NCBI RefSeq assembly: GCF_016863115.1
Contig: NZ_BOOG01000027.1
Span: 1-64,000 of the forward strand
DNA from: Sphaerimonospora thailandensis
GTDB lineage: Bacteria; Actinomycetota; Actinomycetes; Streptosporangiales; Streptosporangiaceae
DNA: 64,000 nt
Direction of reading: 5' to 3'
This document shows positions 1 to 7,354 of the stretch, piece after piece. The number at the start of each line of letters is the position of its first letter. Position 1 is the first letter of the stretch. Made by a program: the position numbers and the translations under genes. Below the pieces are notes generated by a model. It was not told where the DNA came from and did not search any database. It was given only the letters and a program-made list of their open reading frames with translations.

Positions 1-2916
1 TGCCTCCTGGATGGCGGCCAACTCCCGGGCCGCCTTGTCCTCGGAACGCTTGTCCGCGGTCGCCCGTGCGATCACTATGGCCTCTCGGGCACAGGCCAAC
101 GCATCTTCCGGCCGATTGAGGAGCCAGTTGGCCTTGGCCAGCAGAGTGAGGCACTCCGGCTCGATATCGCGGTCCTTAGCTGCTCGGGTCAGGGCGAGCG
201 CCTCCTTAAGGTGGTGCTTCGCCGACCGCGGATCCTTGCGCTGGAGCCAGACTTTGGCCAGGAAACGGTGGGACGAGGCCTCCTGGAATCGGTCGCCCGC
301 CGCACGCGCCATCGACAGTGCCTCTTCCAGCATTGCAGTGGCGGACGTGAGATCACCGAGTCCCCGGTAGGCGCTACCGAGCATGCCAAGCGCATGCCGT
401 TCTCCTACAGCCGTACCGATCTCCCGGGCAATCGCCAGTTGTATCCGCGAGGATTCGAGGGCCTCCGCGTACCGCTCCAGGAGGAGGTAGGCGGCACTCA
501 GGTTGCCGAGCGCTCGCATCTCCGCGAATCGGTCCGCCCGGTCGCGGTGAAGCCCCAACTCGATTTCATGGTGGGCCACCGCCTCGGACGGGCGTCCCAC
601 CAGCCCCAACGCCATCGCGACATGGCCGTGGGCCAGTGCCGTGAGCTCCTGATCGCCGAGGCGCTGTCCAGTGCGGAGTGCCTGCTGATTGATCCACAGA
701 TTGTCGTTTCGATGGCCCGCGCGGTACAGGTGCCACATTAGCGAGAAACCTATGTATACGCCCATGCGGGCGACTGCGTCGTCCGCTGATGACATGGCAT
801 GCGAAGCGGCGGCCAGAATGTTCGCCCGCTCACGCTCCAGCCAGGCGTAGGCGGCCTGGCCATCGGTGAGTGGCACCGGTTCCTGCTCGACCTCGGGCCA
901 GGGAGCCAGGACACGGTGTGGGTCCAGCAGCGTCATGGCGAGACGCACTGTCGTTCCGTACTGGCCGAGCGTCCGTTTGAGCGCGTCCGACCGGAGCTGT
1001 TGTGACAGGTGGTCTTCCGCCAGCTCCATCGCGAACAGACGCACCAGATCGTGAAGCTGGAAGCGGTCGCATTCGTGCGACTCAATGAGGTGTGCCTCCA
1101 CGAGGCGTTCCAGCGCTCGCTCGGCGAGATCGACGGGGGCGTCGAGAAGCGCCGCGACGACGTGGGGGGTCACATCCGGCACGTGGAGGACGCCCAAGTG
1201 GGGCAGCGTACGAGCGGCCGTGCGATCGATCGGGCGGGAGCTGCGCGAGAGCGTGTCATGACTCAGCTCCAGGCTCGATCGTACGGCGATGTCCCCCGAC
1301 TCCAGCTCGTGCAGGATCCGGCCCCGGTCTTCGAGCCGCTCGACCAGGTGTCGTACCTCCCAATGCGGCCGGTCGATCAGGCGTGCCGCGGCCAGTCGCA
1401 GGGCCAGCGGCAGGCCGTCGCAGAGATCCACCAGCCGGGCCGCCGCGGCGGGGTTCGCCGCGACCCGCCTCGCACCGATCAGTTTGGCGAGCATGGTGAC
1501 CGCCTCCGAGCGGACCATCATGCCGAGACGTACCTGAGCGCAGTTGTCCACGGCCGCGAACGACTCCCGGCTCGTGATCAGGACCGCGTTCCCCGACGGC
1601 AGATCCAGCAGTGGGCGCACCTGATCGGGGCCGGACGCGTCGTCGAGCACGGCGAGGACGCGCCGCCCGGCCAGCGTGTCCCGCAGCATGGCCGCCGCCT
1701 CGTCGACCTCATGCGGCACGGCCTCGGCGCGCACGCCGAGCGCGCGCAGGAACCTGCCGAGCAGGTCGATCGGCTTCAACCGCTCGACCCCCGGCGTCGC
1801 GCCGAGCAGGTTGGCGTAGAGCAGGCCGTCCGGAAAGTGATCGCCGACGGCGTGGGCGGCCTGAACGGCCATCGCCGACTTGCCGGCTCCCGCGGGACCG
1901 GTGATGGCGACCACGGCCTGCGGCGGGCCGCCCTCCCAGGGAGCCAGCAGTGCACGCAGCCGCACCGACTCATCGGTCCGGCCCACGAACCCGTCCATGG
2001 CGCGGGGGAGTTGACGCGGCACCGGAACCTCGGGATCTCCCGCGTGAAGCGGTGACCGGGAGTCGAGCCTGATCTGTCCCTGATCGGGGTCGGCCGAGTC
2101 GAACGTCGGGTCGCTTCGCAGGATCGCGTGATAGCGCCTCTGCAGGCTCTCACCCGGATCCACCCCGAGCCGCTCCGCCAGGAGTCGGCGGAAGTCCAGG
2201 TAGGCGTCCAGCGCAGCGGCCTGCCGACCGGAGCGGTAGAGCGCCAGCATCAGCAGTTCCCGAGCCCGTTCCCGGAGGGGGTGTTCGCCGACCAGGTCAT
2301 GCAATGCCGGGAGAGCTTCCTGATGACGGCCCAGTCCGAGCAGGATGTCGGCGCGATCCTCAACCGTGATCAGGCGGAGCTCCTCCAGCCGGGCCCGTTC
2401 CGCCTCGGCGAATGGGCCGGGAATTCCGGACAGCGCCCGCCCAGTCCAGAGTTCCAGTGCGGCGTCCATTGCGCGCAGCGATTCTTGGCGGTCGTCTTCG
2501 GCGCGAAGTCGACGGGCCTTGGCGATGCCGTGCTCGAACTCCTCGGAGTCGATCTGAAACCGCCCCTGTGACAGCGTGTATCCTCCCGACCTGTTCACGA
2601 GCAGGGCGAAAGGACCGCGAGGTCCTCGATCCGGTTCCAGTTCTCGCCGGAGTCCGGCGATATAGGTATAGATGCTCTGGGATGCGGTTTTGGGGGGAGC
2701 CTCCCCCCATAATCCGCTGATGAGAGTTTCCTTCGCCACGATCTGACCCGGTCGGGCGGCCAGGATGCACAGGGTGGCCCGCTGGAGCGGAGCTCCGAGA
2801 TCCAGTCGGCGTCGCCGATGCCAGGCGGTCACGGGACCAAGTACATGGAAACGGTGGGCCGGATGCTGGGACTCTTCGTACTCGCCAGCCATATCCATAC
2901 GCCTGCGGATCTCCAT
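1..2916 (-). CDS. AfsR-like SARP transcriptional regulator, C-terminus outside the window
   Basis: The reading frame is open from ATG at 2916 to the window edge (972 codons). An OmpR-type winged-helix domain lies at about residues 20-110 and a bacterial transcriptional activation domain at about 115-265. An NB-ARC ATPase follows, with the P-loop GPAGAGKSAMA near residue 340. From about residue 680 there are TPR-like helical repeats. This is the AfsR layout: a DNA-binding SARP with an ATP-dependent switch, usually activating secondary-metabolite genes. The start is uncertain; ATGs at 2898 and 2892 are also in frame and no strong ribosome site marks any of them. It lies 317 bp downstream of, and on the same strand as, a small secreted-peptide gene, so it could be a target of the XRE-TPR switch. 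The target genes are not known. Confidence 0.88.
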   Translation of the reverse strand, partial: MEIRRRMDMAGEYEESQHPAHRFHVLGPVTAWHRRRRLDLGAPLQRATLCILAARPGQIVAKETLISGLWGEAPPKTASQSIYTYIAGLRRELEPDRGPRGPFALLVNRSGGYTLSQGRFQIDSEEFEHGIAKARRLRAEDDRQESLRAMDAALELWTGRALSGIPGPFAEAERARLEELRLITVEDRADILLGLGRHQEALPALHDLVGEHPLRERARELLMLALYRSGRQAAALDAYLDFRRLLAERLGVDPGESLQRRYHAILRSDPTFDSADPDQGQIRLDSRSPLHAGDPEVPVPRQLPRAMDGFVGRTDESVRLRALLAPWEGGPPQAVVAITGPAGAGKSAMAVQAAHAVGDHFPDGLLYANLLGATPGVERLKPIDLLGRFLRALGVRAEAVPHEVDEAAAMLRDTLAGRRVLAVLDDASGPDQVRPLLDLPSGNAVLITSRESFAAVDNCAQVRLGMMVRSEAVTMLAKLIGARRVAANPAAAARLVDLCDGLPLALRLAAARLIDRPHWEVRHLVERLEDRGRILHELESGDIAVRSSLELSHDTLSRSSRPIDRTAARTLPHLGVLHVPDVTPHVVAALLDAPVDLAERALERLVEAHLIESHECDRFQLHDLVRLFAMELAEDHLSQQLRSDALKRTLGQYGTTVRLAMTLLDPHRVLAPWPEVEQEPVPLTDGQAAYAWLERERANILAAASHAMSSADDAVARMGVYIGFSLMWHLYRAGHRNDNLWINQQALRTGQRLGDQELTALAHGHVAMALGLVGRPSEAVAHHEIELGLHRDRADRFAEMRALGNLSAAYLLLERYAEALESSRIQLAIAREIGTAVGERHALGMLGSAYRGLGDLTSATAMLEEALSMARAAGDRFQEASSHRFLAKVWLQRKDPRSAKHHLKEALALTRAAKDRDIEPECLTLLAKANWLLNRPEDALACAREAIVIARATADKRSEDKAARELAAIQEA

Positions 2917-3233
2917 GTGAAGGGTTGCGCATTCAGTGATGGTCGGGGAAGTCCATGGCCGCATCCGCCATAGAAGGAGATGACGGTTGGTGCGGAGTTA
3001 CCGTATTCCGTAGATCCAGATGCCGTCTAGTTTCTCGGGATGGTGTGGACTCCGGCATCGCAGGTGCGCACAATGAATCGGCGTAGGGCCTACGCGTGCG
3101 ACCAGATCGGAGTCGCGTGCAACCCGCCACGAATATCGCGGCGTTGACCCCGCCCCGGCATCTGCCCCCCGAGTAGGGCCAGCGGGTGAGCACGAGGCGG
3201 GGTGTCGTCCTTACGGGCAACGAGTCGGCTCGG
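2917..3233. other. Intergenic stretch without a convincing gene
   Basis: This 317-bp stretch separates the SARP regulator from the small peptide gene. I see no open frame with actinomycete codon bias or a ribosome site, no repeat and no obvious terminator hairpin. It may be the untranslated leader of the SARP gene. Confidence 0.5.
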
Positions 3234-3362
3234 TCAGCAGCAGGTCGTCACGGCGCTGAGGTGCATGGGTGACGTGGAGGCGCTGGCGGACGTAGCATTG
3301 CCTGCAGTAACCAGGCCAACCGATATCAGGGCAGTCAGGGCAAGCAGTGCGAAGCGGCGCAT
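3234..3362 (-). CDS. Small secreted peptide (42 aa), candidate signalling pro-peptide
   Basis: ATG at 3362 opens a 42-codon frame ending TGA at 3234, with AAAGAGA as a plausible ribosome site. The product starts MRRFALLALTAL, has a hydrophobic core of about 15 residues and an Ala-rich cleavage region (AGNATSASA), and ends SPMHLSAVTTCC. This is a textbook Sec signal peptide followed by only about 14 residues, too short for an enzyme or structural protein. It is divergent from an XRE-TPR regulator, 57 bp between start codons. In Rgg/PlcR-type (RRNPP) systems such a pro-peptide is exported, trimmed to a short C-terminal peptide, re-imported and bound by the TPR domain. That role is inference. 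It could also be a small lipoprotein-like or stress peptide of unknown function. Confidence 0.6.
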   Translation of the reverse strand: MRRFALLALTALISVGLVTAGNATSASASTSPMHLSAVTTCC

Positions 3363-3383
3363 GAGAGTCTCTTTCGTGAGGGA

Positions 3384-3394
3384 CTGACTGTCAG
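3384..3394. promoter_or_regulatory. Palindrome between the divergent peptide and XRE-TPR genes
   Basis: The perfect palindrome CTGACTGTCAG sits in the 57-bp gap between the divergent start codons (3362 and 3420). Its position suits an operator for the XRE regulator that would control both promoters. Function is inferred from position only. Confidence 0.4.
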
Positions 3395-3419
3395 ATCTAC
3401 ATTCTCTCTAGAGGTGCAT

Positions 3420-4718
3420 GTGACCAGTCAAGGTTTGGTCGGCGAGCGGATCAAGATGATCCGTCGGCAGCGCGGTCTCTCGCAGGCACAGCTCGCCCAT
3501 CCGGAACTGTCAGACAGCTACGTCTCCTTGATCGAGAGTGGAAAGCGGACGCCGACCCCCGCTGTCCTGGAACTGCTTGCCCAGAAACTGGACTGCTCGC
3601 TCACCTTCCTGGTCAACGGCGTCACGGCCGAGCAGATGGAGGACCTCGAGCTGGGGCTGCGCTTCGCGCGACTCGCTCTGGAGAACGGAGAGGTGACCGA
3701 GGCGAGGAGTCGGTACGCGGAGCTTCTGGAGGACAACAGCCTGGCGGGCCTGGCGTCGCTGAGGCAGGACGCCAGATACGGGTATGCACTGGCCGCCGAG
3801 GCCTGTGGAGACCTTCCGGAGGCGATCTCCGTTCTGAGTTCGCTCAGGGAGGACGAGACCGAGGGGCAGTCTCCGGAACGCCGTGTTCAGATCGCTCTCG
3901 CCCTCTGCCGCTGCCACCGCGAGTTCGGGGACTTCTCGGCAGCGGTGCGGATCGGCGAAGAGACGCTCGGGTTGGCCTCCAACAGCCCGCAGTGGAACGA
4001 CGACCTGATCGAGCTCGGGTCGACGCTTCTGTCGGTCTACCTCGATCGCGGTGACCTGCTTCGCGCCAGGCAGTTCGCGGCCGAACTTCTGTCGGCGGCC
4101 GAGCAACTGGGTACTCCCCGTGCCATCGTCGCCGCCTGCTGGAACGCCGCGGTGACGGCCGACCTGCTGGGGTCGGGTGAGGAGGCCATGGCCCTGGTGG
4201 AACGCGCGATGGCCATCCAGTCGGAGAACGGCGAGCCGCGCAACCTCGCCCGACTTCGCAGCGCCTATGCCATGTTGCTCTACCGCGTGCGACCGGCAGA
4301 GGTGGCAGCCGCCCGGGATCTGCTCCTGCGCGTGCTGTCGGAGTTGAAGGAGTCCGCTGCGGCCAGAGGGGACATCGCCCAGGCGTTGCTCTACCTCGCG
4401 CGAGCGGAGATGACGCTGGGCCACCCGGATGAGGCGGTCGATCATGCGCACGCCGCCTTCGTGATCGCGGCTGATGGGACGAGTAAGGCCTTGCTCGCCG
4501 AGGCGCACCTGGTGCTGGGGCAGGCGTATTGGATGCGACGCCAGGATGACGAGGCGGCCGCCGAGCTGGGTTCGGCCGCCGGATGCCTGGAGCGTCTCCC
4601 CGCGACGCGAAAGGCCGCCGAGACTTGGCAGGCCGCCGCGGAGACGTTTGGCCGCCTGGGCGATCACGAGGCGAGCGCGGCAGCCTACCATCGGGCCCTT
4701 GCCTGCGTGGGCCTTTGA
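3420..4718 (+). CDS. XRE-family HTH regulator with TPR domain (RRNPP-like)
   Basis: The product is 432 aa if it starts at GTG 3420, which has AGAGG five bases upstream; GTG 3414 is an alternative. Residues 8-65 form an XRE helix-turn-helix (GERIKMIRRQRGLSQAQLA, then YVSLIESGKRTP). The remainder is a series of helical pairs rich in A/L/E spaced like tetratricopeptide repeats (for example YGYALAAEACGDLPEAISVL). HTH plus TPR is the architecture of peptide-sensing RRNPP regulators such as PlcR, PrgX and Rgg, where the TPR groove binds a short peptide. The divergent secreted-peptide gene supports that reading. Plain XRE-TPR regulators without a peptide partner are also common in actinomycetes, so the ligand is inference. 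Confidence 0.85.
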   Translation: MTSQGLVGERIKMIRRQRGLSQAQLAHPELSDSYVSLIESGKRTPTPAVLELLAQKLDCSLTFLVNGVTAEQMEDLELGLRFARLALENGEVTEARSRYAELLEDNSLAGLASLRQDARYGYALAAEACGDLPEAISVLSSLREDETEGQSPERRVQIALALCRCHREFGDFSAAVRIGEETLGLASNSPQWNDDLIELGSTLLSVYLDRGDLLRARQFAAELLSAAEQLGTPRAIVAACWNAAVTADLLGSGEEAMALVERAMAIQSENGEPRNLARLRSAYAMLLYRVRPAEVAAARDLLLRVLSELKESAAARGDIAQALLYLARAEMTLGHPDEAVDHAHAAFVIAADGTSKALLAEAHLVLGQAYWMRRQDDEAAAELGSAAGCLERLPATRKAAETWQAAAETFGRLGDHEASAAAYHRALACVGL

Positions 4719-4754: not shown

Positions 4755-5363
4755 ATGAGAAAATACTCGTTCGCCACCGTCGCCGGGTTGATCGTGACGC
4801 TGACGCTGGGAGTGGTGCTCGCCCTCCCGGCGTGGGCCCATACTTCGCTCAGGAGCAGTGATCCGGCGAAGAACGCCCAGGTTCAGACCTTGAGCAAGGT
4901 GACCCTGGAGTTCACCGAGTCCGTGCGCTTCCCCGTCGTGGTCGTGCAGGGCCCGGGCGGCAAGCGGTACGAGAGCGGTGCTCCCGTCGTCGAGGGGCCG
5001 AAGGTGACCCAGGCGGTCCTGCCCTCGGTGCCCCCCGGCAAGTACACGATCGCCTGGCGGGTCGTCTCCACCGACGGGCACCCGGTGGAGGGGGAGATCC
5101 CCTTCACCGTGATCGGCTCGCCCGGTGCGTCGGAGGCCGTGCCGGATTCCGCGAGCTCCCAGGGGTCTGAAAGCCCACAGGGCGTCGAAGGCGCCCAAGG
5201 GGGCTCCGGCGAGGCCGCCCCGGCGGCCACGTCGGTGGCCCAGAACGCTCAGGACGCTCAGGACGCTCAGGAGACGACCATTCCCGGTTGGGCCTGGGCC
5301 GTGATCTTCGGGGTCGCCGGAGTCGGCATCGGACTGTTCCTCAGTCTGCGGAAGAGGCCGTGA
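4755..5363 (+). CDS. copC: CopC-domain copper-binding membrane protein
   Basis: This 202-aa protein has a signal peptide (LALPAWA) cut so that His29 becomes the mature N-terminus, the usual first copper ligand of CopC. The CopC beta-sandwich follows (HTSLRSSDPAKNAQ, then VSTDGHPVEGEIPF with a second His). After a low-complexity linker comes a C-terminal membrane segment at about 172-195, so the domain is displayed outside the membrane. CopC proteins carry copper in the periplasmic or wall space. It overlaps the next gene by four bases (GTGA), so the two are translationally coupled, and that gene encodes a CopD/CtaG fusion. Both would serve copper uptake or delivery to cytochrome oxidase. Confidence 0.9.
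   Translation: MRKYSFATVAGLIVTLTLGVVLALPAWAHTSLRSSDPAKNAQVQTLSKVTLEFTESVRFPVVVVQGPGGKRYESGAPVVEGPKVTQAVLPSVPPGKYTIAWRVVSTDGHPVEGEIPFTVIGSPGASEAVPDSASSQGSESPQGVEGAQGGSGEAAPAATSVAQNAQDAQDAQETTIPGWAWAVIFGVAGVGIGLFLSLRKRP
5241..5270 (+). repeat. Nine-base tandem repeat in the copC linker
   Basis: Three in-frame copies of the unit GCTCAGGAC encode the run AQDAQDAQ just before the membrane segment. The unit length keeps the frame when copy number changes. Confidence 0.7.
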
Positions 5364-7354
5364 ACCGGGCCGCGCGCCTGACCGTCGCTGCGCTGTGCGC
5401 GGCGGTCGGCGCCCTGGCGATCACGATGATCCTCAGCGGCGCGGCCACTCCGCGGATCATTCCCGGCCTGCCCGACGAGGGCATGGTCACCCGGTGGATG
5501 CTGCCCATCTCGAAGCTCACCGTGGACGTCTCCGGCGTGCTGACCGTGGGGCTGCTGGCCGCCGCCGCGACCTTCCTGCCCAGCGACAAGGGCCTGCTCG
5601 GCGAGGCCGCCCAGTTGTACGTCAGGGCCGCCTCCTGGACGGCGCTGGCCTGGGCGGCGGGGGCGGCCGGTGCGCTGGTCTTCGGCGCTTCGAACACGTT
5701 CGGCCAGCCGGTCAGCGAGCTCATCGACGGTGCCATGCTGACCAGCTACGCGAGCCAGACATCACAGGGTGTCGCGCTCACGCTTGTCGTTCTTTTCGGC
5801 GTCGCCATCGCCCTGTTCGCCCGGAACGCGATCACCGCGGGTGTCGCCGCCGGACTGCTGGCCCTCGCGCTCGTGACGCTCCTCCCGCCGGCCCTCACCG
5901 GTCACTCCGCCTCGTCGCCCAACCACGGGCTCGCCACCACCTCGGTCGCGTTCCACCTGCTGTTCCTGGCACCGTGGGTGGGTGGGCTGGCCGTCCTGTC
6001 CGTGCACGCGCTGCGTGGAGAACGTCACCTCGCCGTCGCGGCCGACCGGTTCTCCCGCATGGCGTTATGGTGCTTCATCGGCGTCGGAGTGTCCGGCCTC
6101 GCCAGCGTCGCCGCCCGGCTCGCCTCGGTCGACGCCCTGTTCACCTCGTCGTACGGCCTGATCCTGCTGGCCAAGATCGCCGCGTTCGTGCTGCTCGGCT
6201 TCGTGGGATGGCGGCATCGCAGGCGGACCCTGCCCCGCCTGGCCTCCGGCGAGCCGCACGCGTTCCTGGCACTGGCGCTCGGTGAGATCCTGGTGATGGC
6301 GGCCACGATGGGCCTGGCCGTCGCGCTGTCGCGCACCGCTCCGCCGCCGGTCGAGGTGCCGCTGGACCGGGCGTTCGAGCTGCTCGGCTACCTGGTGCCG
6401 CCTCCACTGACCTTGGGCAACCTGCTGGCGCTGTGGTGGCTCGACCTGTTCTTCGCCGCGCTCGCCGTCGTGCTGGCCGGGCTCTACGTCGCCGGAGTCG
6501 TACGGCTCTACCGCCGCGGCGACCGCTGGCCGTGGGGACGCACGGTCAGCTGGCTCCTCAGCATCGTGATCTTGGTGTTGACGACCCAGAGCGGTGTCGC
6601 GCGCTACGGGCCCGTGCTGTTCAGCGTGCACATGACCCAGCACATGATCCTCTCGATGCTGATCCCGATCTTCCTGGTGCTGGGCGCGCCCGTCACGCTC
6701 GCGCTGCGCGCGCTCAGGCCGGCGGTACGGAAGGGCGACCGGGGGCCCCGTGAATGGATCACGGTGATCCTGCACAGCCGGGTCGTCAAGTTCTTCACTC
6801 ATCCCGCCATCGCGACGGCGATCTTCATCGTCTCCACGTTCGCGCTGTACTTCACTCCGTTGTTCGCCTCCGCGATGCAGGAGCACATCGGGCACATCGC
6901 GATGATGGTGCACTTCCTGCTCAGCGGCAGCCTGTTCTTCTGGGTGATCATCGGGGTCGACCCCGCGCCGAACAAGTTGCCCCACTTCGGGCGTCTGCTG
7001 CTGCTCATGGTCACGATGCCGTTCCACGCGTTCTTCGGGATCGCCGTGATGAGCATGGGCGCCGTCCTGGCCGCCGACTACTACGGTCAACTCGGCCGGA
7101 CCTGGGGGGTCTCCTCCCTGGCGGACCAGGAGACCGGCGGAGCGATCGCCTGGGCCTTCGGCGAGGTCCCGACGCTGATCGTGCTGCTGGCGCTCGGCTT
7201 CCAGTGGTGGCGTGCGGACGATCGGGCGGCCCGCCGGGCCGAGCGGCGGGCCGACGCCGTCGCCGCGAAGACCGGCGGCACCGGTGACGCGGATCTCGAC
7301 GCCTACAACGACTACCTGGACAAGCTGAACAAGCGGGACGCGACGGCGGAGTAG
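5360..7354 (+). CDS. CopD / cytochrome c oxidase assembly (CtaG) fusion protein
   Basis: The GTG at 5360 overlaps the copC stop, giving 664 aa. The N-terminal half (about 1-320) is a multi-helix CopD-type copper permease domain. The second half (about 340-620) matches the caa3-type CtaG family, with the His-rich stretches VHMTQHMILSMLIP and EHIGHIAMMVHFLL in membrane helices. The tail is charged and cytoplasmic. Such CopD-CtaG fusions are common in actinobacteria and are thought to bring copper to cytochrome c oxidase. Coupling to copC supports a two-gene copper-delivery operon. No copper-responsive repressor gene is adjacent. Confidence 0.9.
   Translation: MNRAARLTVAALCAAVGALAITMILSGAATPRIIPGLPDEGMVTRWMLPISKLTVDVSGVLTVGLLAAAATFLPSDKGLLGEAAQLYVRAASWTALAWAAGAAGALVFGASNTFGQPVSELIDGAMLTSYASQTSQGVALTLVVLFGVAIALFARNAITAGVAAGLLALALVTLLPPALTGHSASSPNHGLATTSVAFHLLFLAPWVGGLAVLSVHALRGERHLAVAADRFSRMALWCFIGVGVSGLASVAARLASVDALFTSSYGLILLAKIAAFVLLGFVGWRHRRRTLPRLASGEPHAFLALALGEILVMAATMGLAVALSRTAPPPVEVPLDRAFELLGYLVPPPLTLGNLLALWWLDLFFAALAVVLAGLYVAGVVRLYRRGDRWPWGRTVSWLLSIVILVLTTQSGVARYGPVLFSVHMTQHMILSMLIPIFLVLGAPVTLALRALRPAVRKGDRGPREWITVILHSRVVKFFTHPAIATAIFIVSTFALYFTPLFASAMQEHIGHIAMMVHFLLSGSLFFWVIIGVDPAPNKLPHFGRLLLLMVTMPFHAFFGIAVMSMGAVLAADYYGQLGRTWGVSSLADQETGGAIAWAFGEVPTLIVLLALGFQWWRADDRAARRAERRADAVAAKTGGTGDADLDAYNDYLDKLNKRDATAE

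Follow-up and report, generated by a model that had tools for sequence, protein, structure and literature searches.

In the literature that we searched, peptide signalling through intracellular TPR receptors appears as a trait of Firmicutes, with actinomycetes using mainly small-molecule signals. RRNPPA systems have been described for Lactobacillales and Bacillales (PMC9765709; PMC10075063), and neither RRNPP nor PlcR is mentioned in a review on quorum sensing in actinobacteria (PMC4748050). In the PlcR/PapR and NprR/NprX systems of Bacillales, both RRNPPA, a receptor with HTH and TPR domains has a neighbouring exported propeptide, the C-terminal residues of which serve as the signal. The Rgg/SHP and ComR/ComS systems of Lactobacillales have a small peptide gene next to the gene of an XRE-type TPR receptor, in many cases in divergent orientation, and SHP is exported without a cleavable Sec signal. 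Rap/Phr systems, including those with tandem-duplicated Phr propeptides, combine the TPR receptor fold with multi-copy precursors. Extracellular signalling in actinomycetes is represented by the gamma-butyrolactone systems of Streptomyces, which are often linked to SARP regulators.

The locus studied here lies in a window (the whole stretch of DNA that was analysed, 64,000 nucleotides) from Sphaerimonospora thailandensis, a close relative of Sphaerimonospora mesophila, the corresponding regulator of which is 80% identical to that of the window. It shares with PlcR/PapR and NprR/NprX the HTH-TPR receptor and the neighbouring exported propeptide, but it is found in actinomycetes, has a divergent gene order and encodes a peptide with a Cys-Cys or, in some relatives, a GWxxPD C-terminus, and its descent from RRNPPA has not been shown. 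Unlike those of Rgg/SHP and ComR/ComS, its peptides have a conserved Sec-like signal with an AxA site and a different C-terminus; whereas Rap has no HTH, the receptor here carries its own DNA-binding domain; and in contrast to the gamma-butyrolactone systems the signal would be a genetically encoded peptide and the receptor is of XRE-TPR rather than TetR type. We consider it likely, at a probability of about 0.84 and in the absence of any transcript, mass spectrum or binding data, that the two genes form an RRNPP-like cassette of a secreted peptide signal and a cytoplasmic HTH-TPR receptor. A point against this is that the Cys-Cys terminus is unlike known RRNPP pheromones. The features of the cassette are:

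3234..3362, minus strand: peptide precursor gene, 42 aa with C-terminal Cys-Cys, supported by orthologue conservation
3279..3362, minus strand: predicted Sec signal peptide, codons 1-28, supported by composition and by conservation in all orthologues (dN/dS 0.35-0.53)
3237..3278, minus strand: predicted exported tail STSPMHLSAVTTCC, the final CC being invariant in 69/69 unique Cys-Cys-class peptides
3363..3419, no strand: divergent intergenic region of 57 bp, holding both ribosome-binding sites
3420..4718 (alternative start 3414), plus strand: XRE (HTH_3) and TPR regulator, the proposed peptide receptor

The 42-codon frame translates as MRRFALLALTALISVGLVTAGNATSASASTSPMHLSAVTTCC, having a basic n-region, a hydrophobic core, a cleavage-like A-S-A site, after which cleavage was inferred by eye, and then 14 residues with CC last. 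A reading of the locus made without database searches (below, the sequence-only reading) had claimed a frame of this length with a Sec signal, about 14 residues after it and a double Cys end, which held; its remark that the C-terminal Cys-Cys was unusual can now be replaced, as Cys-Cys turned out to be the signature of a family. The C-terminal residues of STSPMHLSAVTTCC are probably the pheromone of the precursor, with neither mass spectrum nor binding data at hand. None of the Pfam and NCBIfam models gave a meaningful match to the peptides. A GGGAG or AGGAG resembling an SD precedes most of the 94 peptide genes, the site in the window being a weaker AAAGAGA. The dN/dS of the signal peptide was 0.53 in 36 close pairs and 0.35 in a clade with switched tails described below. 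As a minor observation, N-[AVG]-T is conserved just ahead of the presumed cleavage site in the window (3291-3299) and in orthologues from Streptosporangiaceae, and this motif was not seen in the peptides of other families.

The sequence-only reading had also described a regulator of HTH plus TPR architecture at 57 bp from, and divergent to, the peptide frame, and this held, with Pfam assigning HTH_3 (E 4e-11) and several TPR models. The regulator is likely to start at GTG 3420 rather than at 3414, because most orthologues start at an equivalent GTGACC following an SD-like AGGGG or AGAGG; start 3420 also reproduces the 57 bp gap of that reading. Promoters and operator are presumed to overlap within 3363-3419. 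The perfect palindrome claimed to lie between the two starts is indeed present (CTGACTGTCAG at 3384-3394, with 5-bp arms and a 1-nt centre), yet it is not conserved across the orthologous intergenic regions, whereby its importance is unsupported; we rejected it as an operator for that lack of conservation and regard it as a likely product of chance.

Homologues of the regulator, sought in 299 genomes of the same family, proved widespread. In a first set of oriented loci, all 30 close homologues, that of the window included, faced a divergent frame of 41-49 codons with a CC end. A second collection, with strains overlapping those of the first, comprised 80 loci from Sphaerimonospora, Planotetraspora, Microbispora, Acrocarpospora, Sphaerisporangium, Herbidospora, Microtetraspora, Sinosporangium, Nonomuraea, Streptosporangium, Planomonospora, Planobispora and other genera, and here a divergent small gene was found in 80/80, with a Cys-Cys tail in 72 and another tail in 8. 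Frames with a signal-peptide-like start and a CC end numbered 72 at this site and only one elsewhere in the 1,026,384 bases of the loci (about 1.03 Mb), a null scan that took in locus flanks and not whole genomes. That sole off-site frame sits at a tandem second cassette, i.e. a second copy of the system, and within the window the frame at 3234-3362 on the minus strand is the only one of its kind. The divergent Cys-Cys frame beside the regulator is more than chance, because it occurs at 72/80 orthologous loci as compared to one occurrence elsewhere in 1.03 Mb, and we take the small frame as a real gene because it is conserved in 80/80 loci, CC frames are rare elsewhere, SD-like sites precede it and its signal peptide is constrained. 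The pairing, the conservation of signal peptide and C-terminus, and the selection are shown, by computation. Absence of a conserved small frame next to orthologous regulators would have refuted the proposal of a peptide quorum-sensing pair; such a frame was present at all 80 close loci and at many distant loci, and both signal peptide and C-terminal residues were conserved across orthologues, so that the proposal is supported, with signalling activity itself remaining inferred.

Ahead of the invariant CC the residues vary between groups and are often common within a genus, as in YS[LI]ECC of Herbidospora, RADFLCC of Sphaerisporangium and DWCC of Microtetraspora. Peptides of Streptosporangium, Planomonospora and Planobispora have the same signal peptide followed by a longer linker and a GWxxPD-like tail without Cys, examples being LGWNHPD, LGWGYPD, SWSYPD, PWNGPA and GWGWPG. 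In this tail-switched clade dN/dS was 1.11 in the linker, i.e. neutral, 0.48 in the last seven codons, i.e. constrained, and 0.35 in the signal. One Streptosporangium precursor (G208, L142:1423-1698, plus strand of the locus) reads ...GGWNGPDSASTLGWNGPDFAGGWNGPDVVSSLGGWNGPDSA and holds four GWNGPD cores in a 27/60-base tandem array; these repeated cores are likewise shown by computation. Multi-copy pheromone precursors are a known feature (PMC11343458, PMC9765709), and RRNPPA propeptides may hold up to 6 pheromone copies (PMC9765709). The receptors belonging to the switched tails form one clade in the receptor tree (support 1.0), with no Cys-Cys-class receptor inside. The replacement of Cys-Cys by GWxxPD, matched by a change in the receptor, offers a ready case for the evolution of pheromone specificity.

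These data bear upon the alternative that the frame is a Cys-responsive leader peptide, in which ribosomes stalling at the CC codons control a downstream gene without any secreted product. Polycysteine short frames are known to act as attenuators in mycobacteria, and two neighbouring Cys codons immediately ahead of the stop would suit such a role. However, most loci have no close co-directional downstream gene, with a convergent PucR gene instead and a SARP gene in only 23/80; purifying selection acts on the signal peptide; the gene keeps its divergent orientation relative to the receptor; and one entire clade dropped the Cys codons yet kept the gene. At other loci, the genes commonly found beyond the peptide gene are a PucR regulator in convergent orientation and a xanthine dehydrogenase-like gene, so that the peptide gene usually stands alone, and this in turn speaks against a cysteine attenuator. 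We regard that alternative as highly unlikely.

The neighbouring genes in the window are:

1..2919, minus strand: AfsR/SARP-like regulator (BTAD, NB-ARC, TPR), start codon uncertain, downstream of the peptide gene on the same strand
4755..5363, plus strand: CopC-domain protein, 36 bp past the regulator, a neighbour conserved in Streptosporangiaceae only
5360..7354, plus strand: CopD/CtaG-like membrane protein, a neighbour conserved in Streptosporangiaceae only

The product of 5360..7354 is what we take to be CopD/CtaG-like, its name not being profile-based. The SARP gene had been placed by the sequence-only reading downstream on the same strand, which held, and had been suggested there as the output of the cassette, which is unsupported beyond a recurrent neighbourhood: an AfsR/SARP-like gene lies at most 6 kb away on the peptide side in 23/80 loci, plus the window. 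When the cassette intergenic region was compared with the region upstream of the SARP gene, the best 16-base matches equalled those of shuffles, giving no shared operator. As an output of the cassette the SARP gene is thus no more than possible, a view based solely on recurrent synteny.

On the regulator side, copC and the CopD/CtaG-like gene are found in nearly all of the 80 Streptosporangiaceae loci, which could point to a copper function wherein the Cys-Cys peptide binds Cu(I) outside the cell, the regulator responds to copper or to the metal-bound peptide, and CopC and CopD/CtaG are effectors. Binding of Cu(I) by vicinal Cys is conceivable. Neither gene, however, was adjacent to Cys-Cys pairs of the same type in other families, the tail-switched clade retains copC/copD though its tail has no Cys, and the Cys residues of the receptor are not invariant. 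A copper role is unlikely to be general because the genes are unlinked in other families and are kept by the clade that lost the cysteines, and we find the copper explanation very improbable. Separately, C165 and C167 of the receptor were considered as disulfide partners of the peptide and rejected, both being variable in orthologues.

Returning to the peptide-receptor reading, the receptor meets the RRNPPA trait of a TPR superhelix with an N-terminal HTH (the HTH being a trait of most subfamilies), and a further trait is present in the neighbouring gene for a short propeptide that carries an export signal (80/80 orthologous loci). The AF2 model of the window's regulator had a pLDDT of 91.5 and consisted of an HTH and a TPR superhelix. 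A profile search of the PDB returned NprR (3.5e-8) and PlcR (9.3e-8) besides generic or unrelated TPR proteins; in structure comparison Rap (Z 25.7) and NprR (Z 24.8) ranked near the top, behind LGN; and Foldseek matched PlcR-PapR7 (E 5.4e-8). The predicted fold, a computational result, is compatible with a peptide-binding receptor, being alone no proof of peptide sensing because the scores of generic TPR proteins such as LGN equal those of RRNPP receptors. Whether the regulator descends from RRNPPA, of which seven subfamilies are described, is undecided, no tree with Firmicutes receptors having been made.

One site in the receptor followed the class of the peptide tail (residues being counted from start 3414):

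4131..4145, plus strand: candidate peptide-specificity site, codons A240-N244 (AACWN), supported by covariation between residue and tail class, without binding data

Position 240 was Ala in 73/73 receptors of the Cys-Cys class and Leu, Met or Trp in 21/21 tail-switched receptors, which further showed N244 changed to mostly Gly or Ala, A284 to Asp, and A322 to Met or Leu. Counted by hand, distant receptors with a CC peptide had Ala240 in all but one, which had Ser. By TPR motif register, residue 240 is inferred to occupy position 2 of a helix A, a usual ligand-facing position. The covariation is shown computationally; its statistical weight is limited because the tail switch is a single evolutionary event. 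Binding of the peptide inside the TPR domain is inferred, with only the indirect support of the A240/N244 shift with tail class. We also tried partial Mantel tests given CopD/CtaG distance as a measure of coevolution (tail vs TPR r 0.41, tail vs HTH 0.10) and discarded them as not tail-specific, the signal peptide correlating equally with TPR (r 0.41).

It could also be argued that the product is a bacteriocin, toxin or surface peptide merely repressed by the neighbouring regulator, with no sensing involved. A short Sec-exported peptide adjoining an XRE regulator would agree with this, and tail variability could stem from antagonistic evolution. Against it, the peptide gene has, outside one family, no conserved neighbour for immunity or maturation, and the repeated cores, the constrained C-terminal core past a neutral linker and the receptor residues tracking tail class are better explained by a fit between ligand and receptor; we judge this alternative very unlikely.

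In the signalling mechanism that we favour, the small gene would yield a precursor exported via Sec, which signal peptidase, probably together with another protease, would cut to set free a short C-terminal fragment with Cys-Cys at its end; this maturation is inferred. The peptide would build up outside the cell and be re-imported, most likely via an oligopeptide ABC transporter. Re-import through an oligopeptide permease is a possibility only, inferred with 17 oligopeptide-binding proteins (SBP_bac_5) found in the genome. The peptide would then bind the TPR superhelix of the XRE-TPR regulator and alter the grip of the HTH on DNA, at least at the divergent promoter that both genes share and perhaps also at nearby regulator genes, the SARP gene among them; the sites on DNA, the direction of regulation and the sensing of population are inferences, too. 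A bolder reading, which we hold to be unlikely, is that of a pheromone family across many actinomycete families, for which a C-terminal Cys-Cys is the ancestral mark. Recognition would there be gated by the vicinal thiols, be it through their disulfide state or through a bound metal, letting cells gauge redox state along with kin density, and in several lineages the pheromone family would control a SARP activator of specialised metabolism that is linked to it.

No RRNPP-like system of actinomycetes was described in the open-licence literature searched (preprints and most subscription papers were outside its scope), and the family of Cys-Cys peptides and receptors in antibiotic-producing actinomycetes is, within that literature, likely to be so far undescribed. 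If the favoured reading is true, actinomycetes would gain a pheromone language with many natural variants and matched receptors, including in producers such as Nonomuraea gerenzanensis, where the standard arrangement with SARP, copC and copD was found, and cheap synthetic peptides would become candidate switches for silent antibiotic clusters.

With regards to the reach of the family, distant receptors paired with CC peptides span 33-45% identity overall. Those about 45% identical come from additional genera of the order; the peptides that they face end in CC again and have signal sequences of unrelated kinds, an identical GPRVHCC tail occurring in three genera. Homologues of 33-38% identity in other actinomycete families (f93, f94, f84, f89, f100) also have divergent CC peptides, with tails SPVDMCC, PGEFCC, PDWPGMCC, HPPTCC, AGPPVCC and so on. 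On the linear plasmid pSMg1-1 of Streptomyces sp. Mg1 (L276), WP_008741297.1, a protein of 71 residues with the end AHTKDIPLCC, is encoded immediately after the regulator WP_008741298.1, and a BTAD/SARP regulator lies farther along; this plasmid carries the same three gene kinds as the window in another order. A second receptor subfamily of Streptosporangium, of about 34% identity (L120:4752-6059, L178-L181), faces secreted peptides of 57-64 residues ending CCYE, and these receptors adjoin a tandem paralogue that has no peptide of its own.

Several homologues at 30-46% identity, in the order, at other Streptomyces plasmid loci and in some other families, had no recognisable peptide nearby, and those of about 45% still had none when rescanned under laxer rules. 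Such peptide-less homologues (L132, L133, L215-L217, L222, L223) often differ at position 240, having Trp, Val, Thr, Gln or Cys. The source genome itself has on contig 31 (L002) a regulator paralogue of 34% identity with Leu at 240 and no recognisable peptide, which might be an eavesdropper or else unrelated. A viral scan for phage-borne copies of the cassette gave none; a contig labelled bacteriophage from human faeces (MT836207.1, L283; an unverified record) has a partial regulator homologue of 36% identity with no peptide seen. Finally, tandem cassettes within one genome were seen at L117 and L118, two receptors each facing its own divergent Cys-Cys peptide, with tails that differ (KDIFCC/DAPRCC; KDIACC/GEPLCC).
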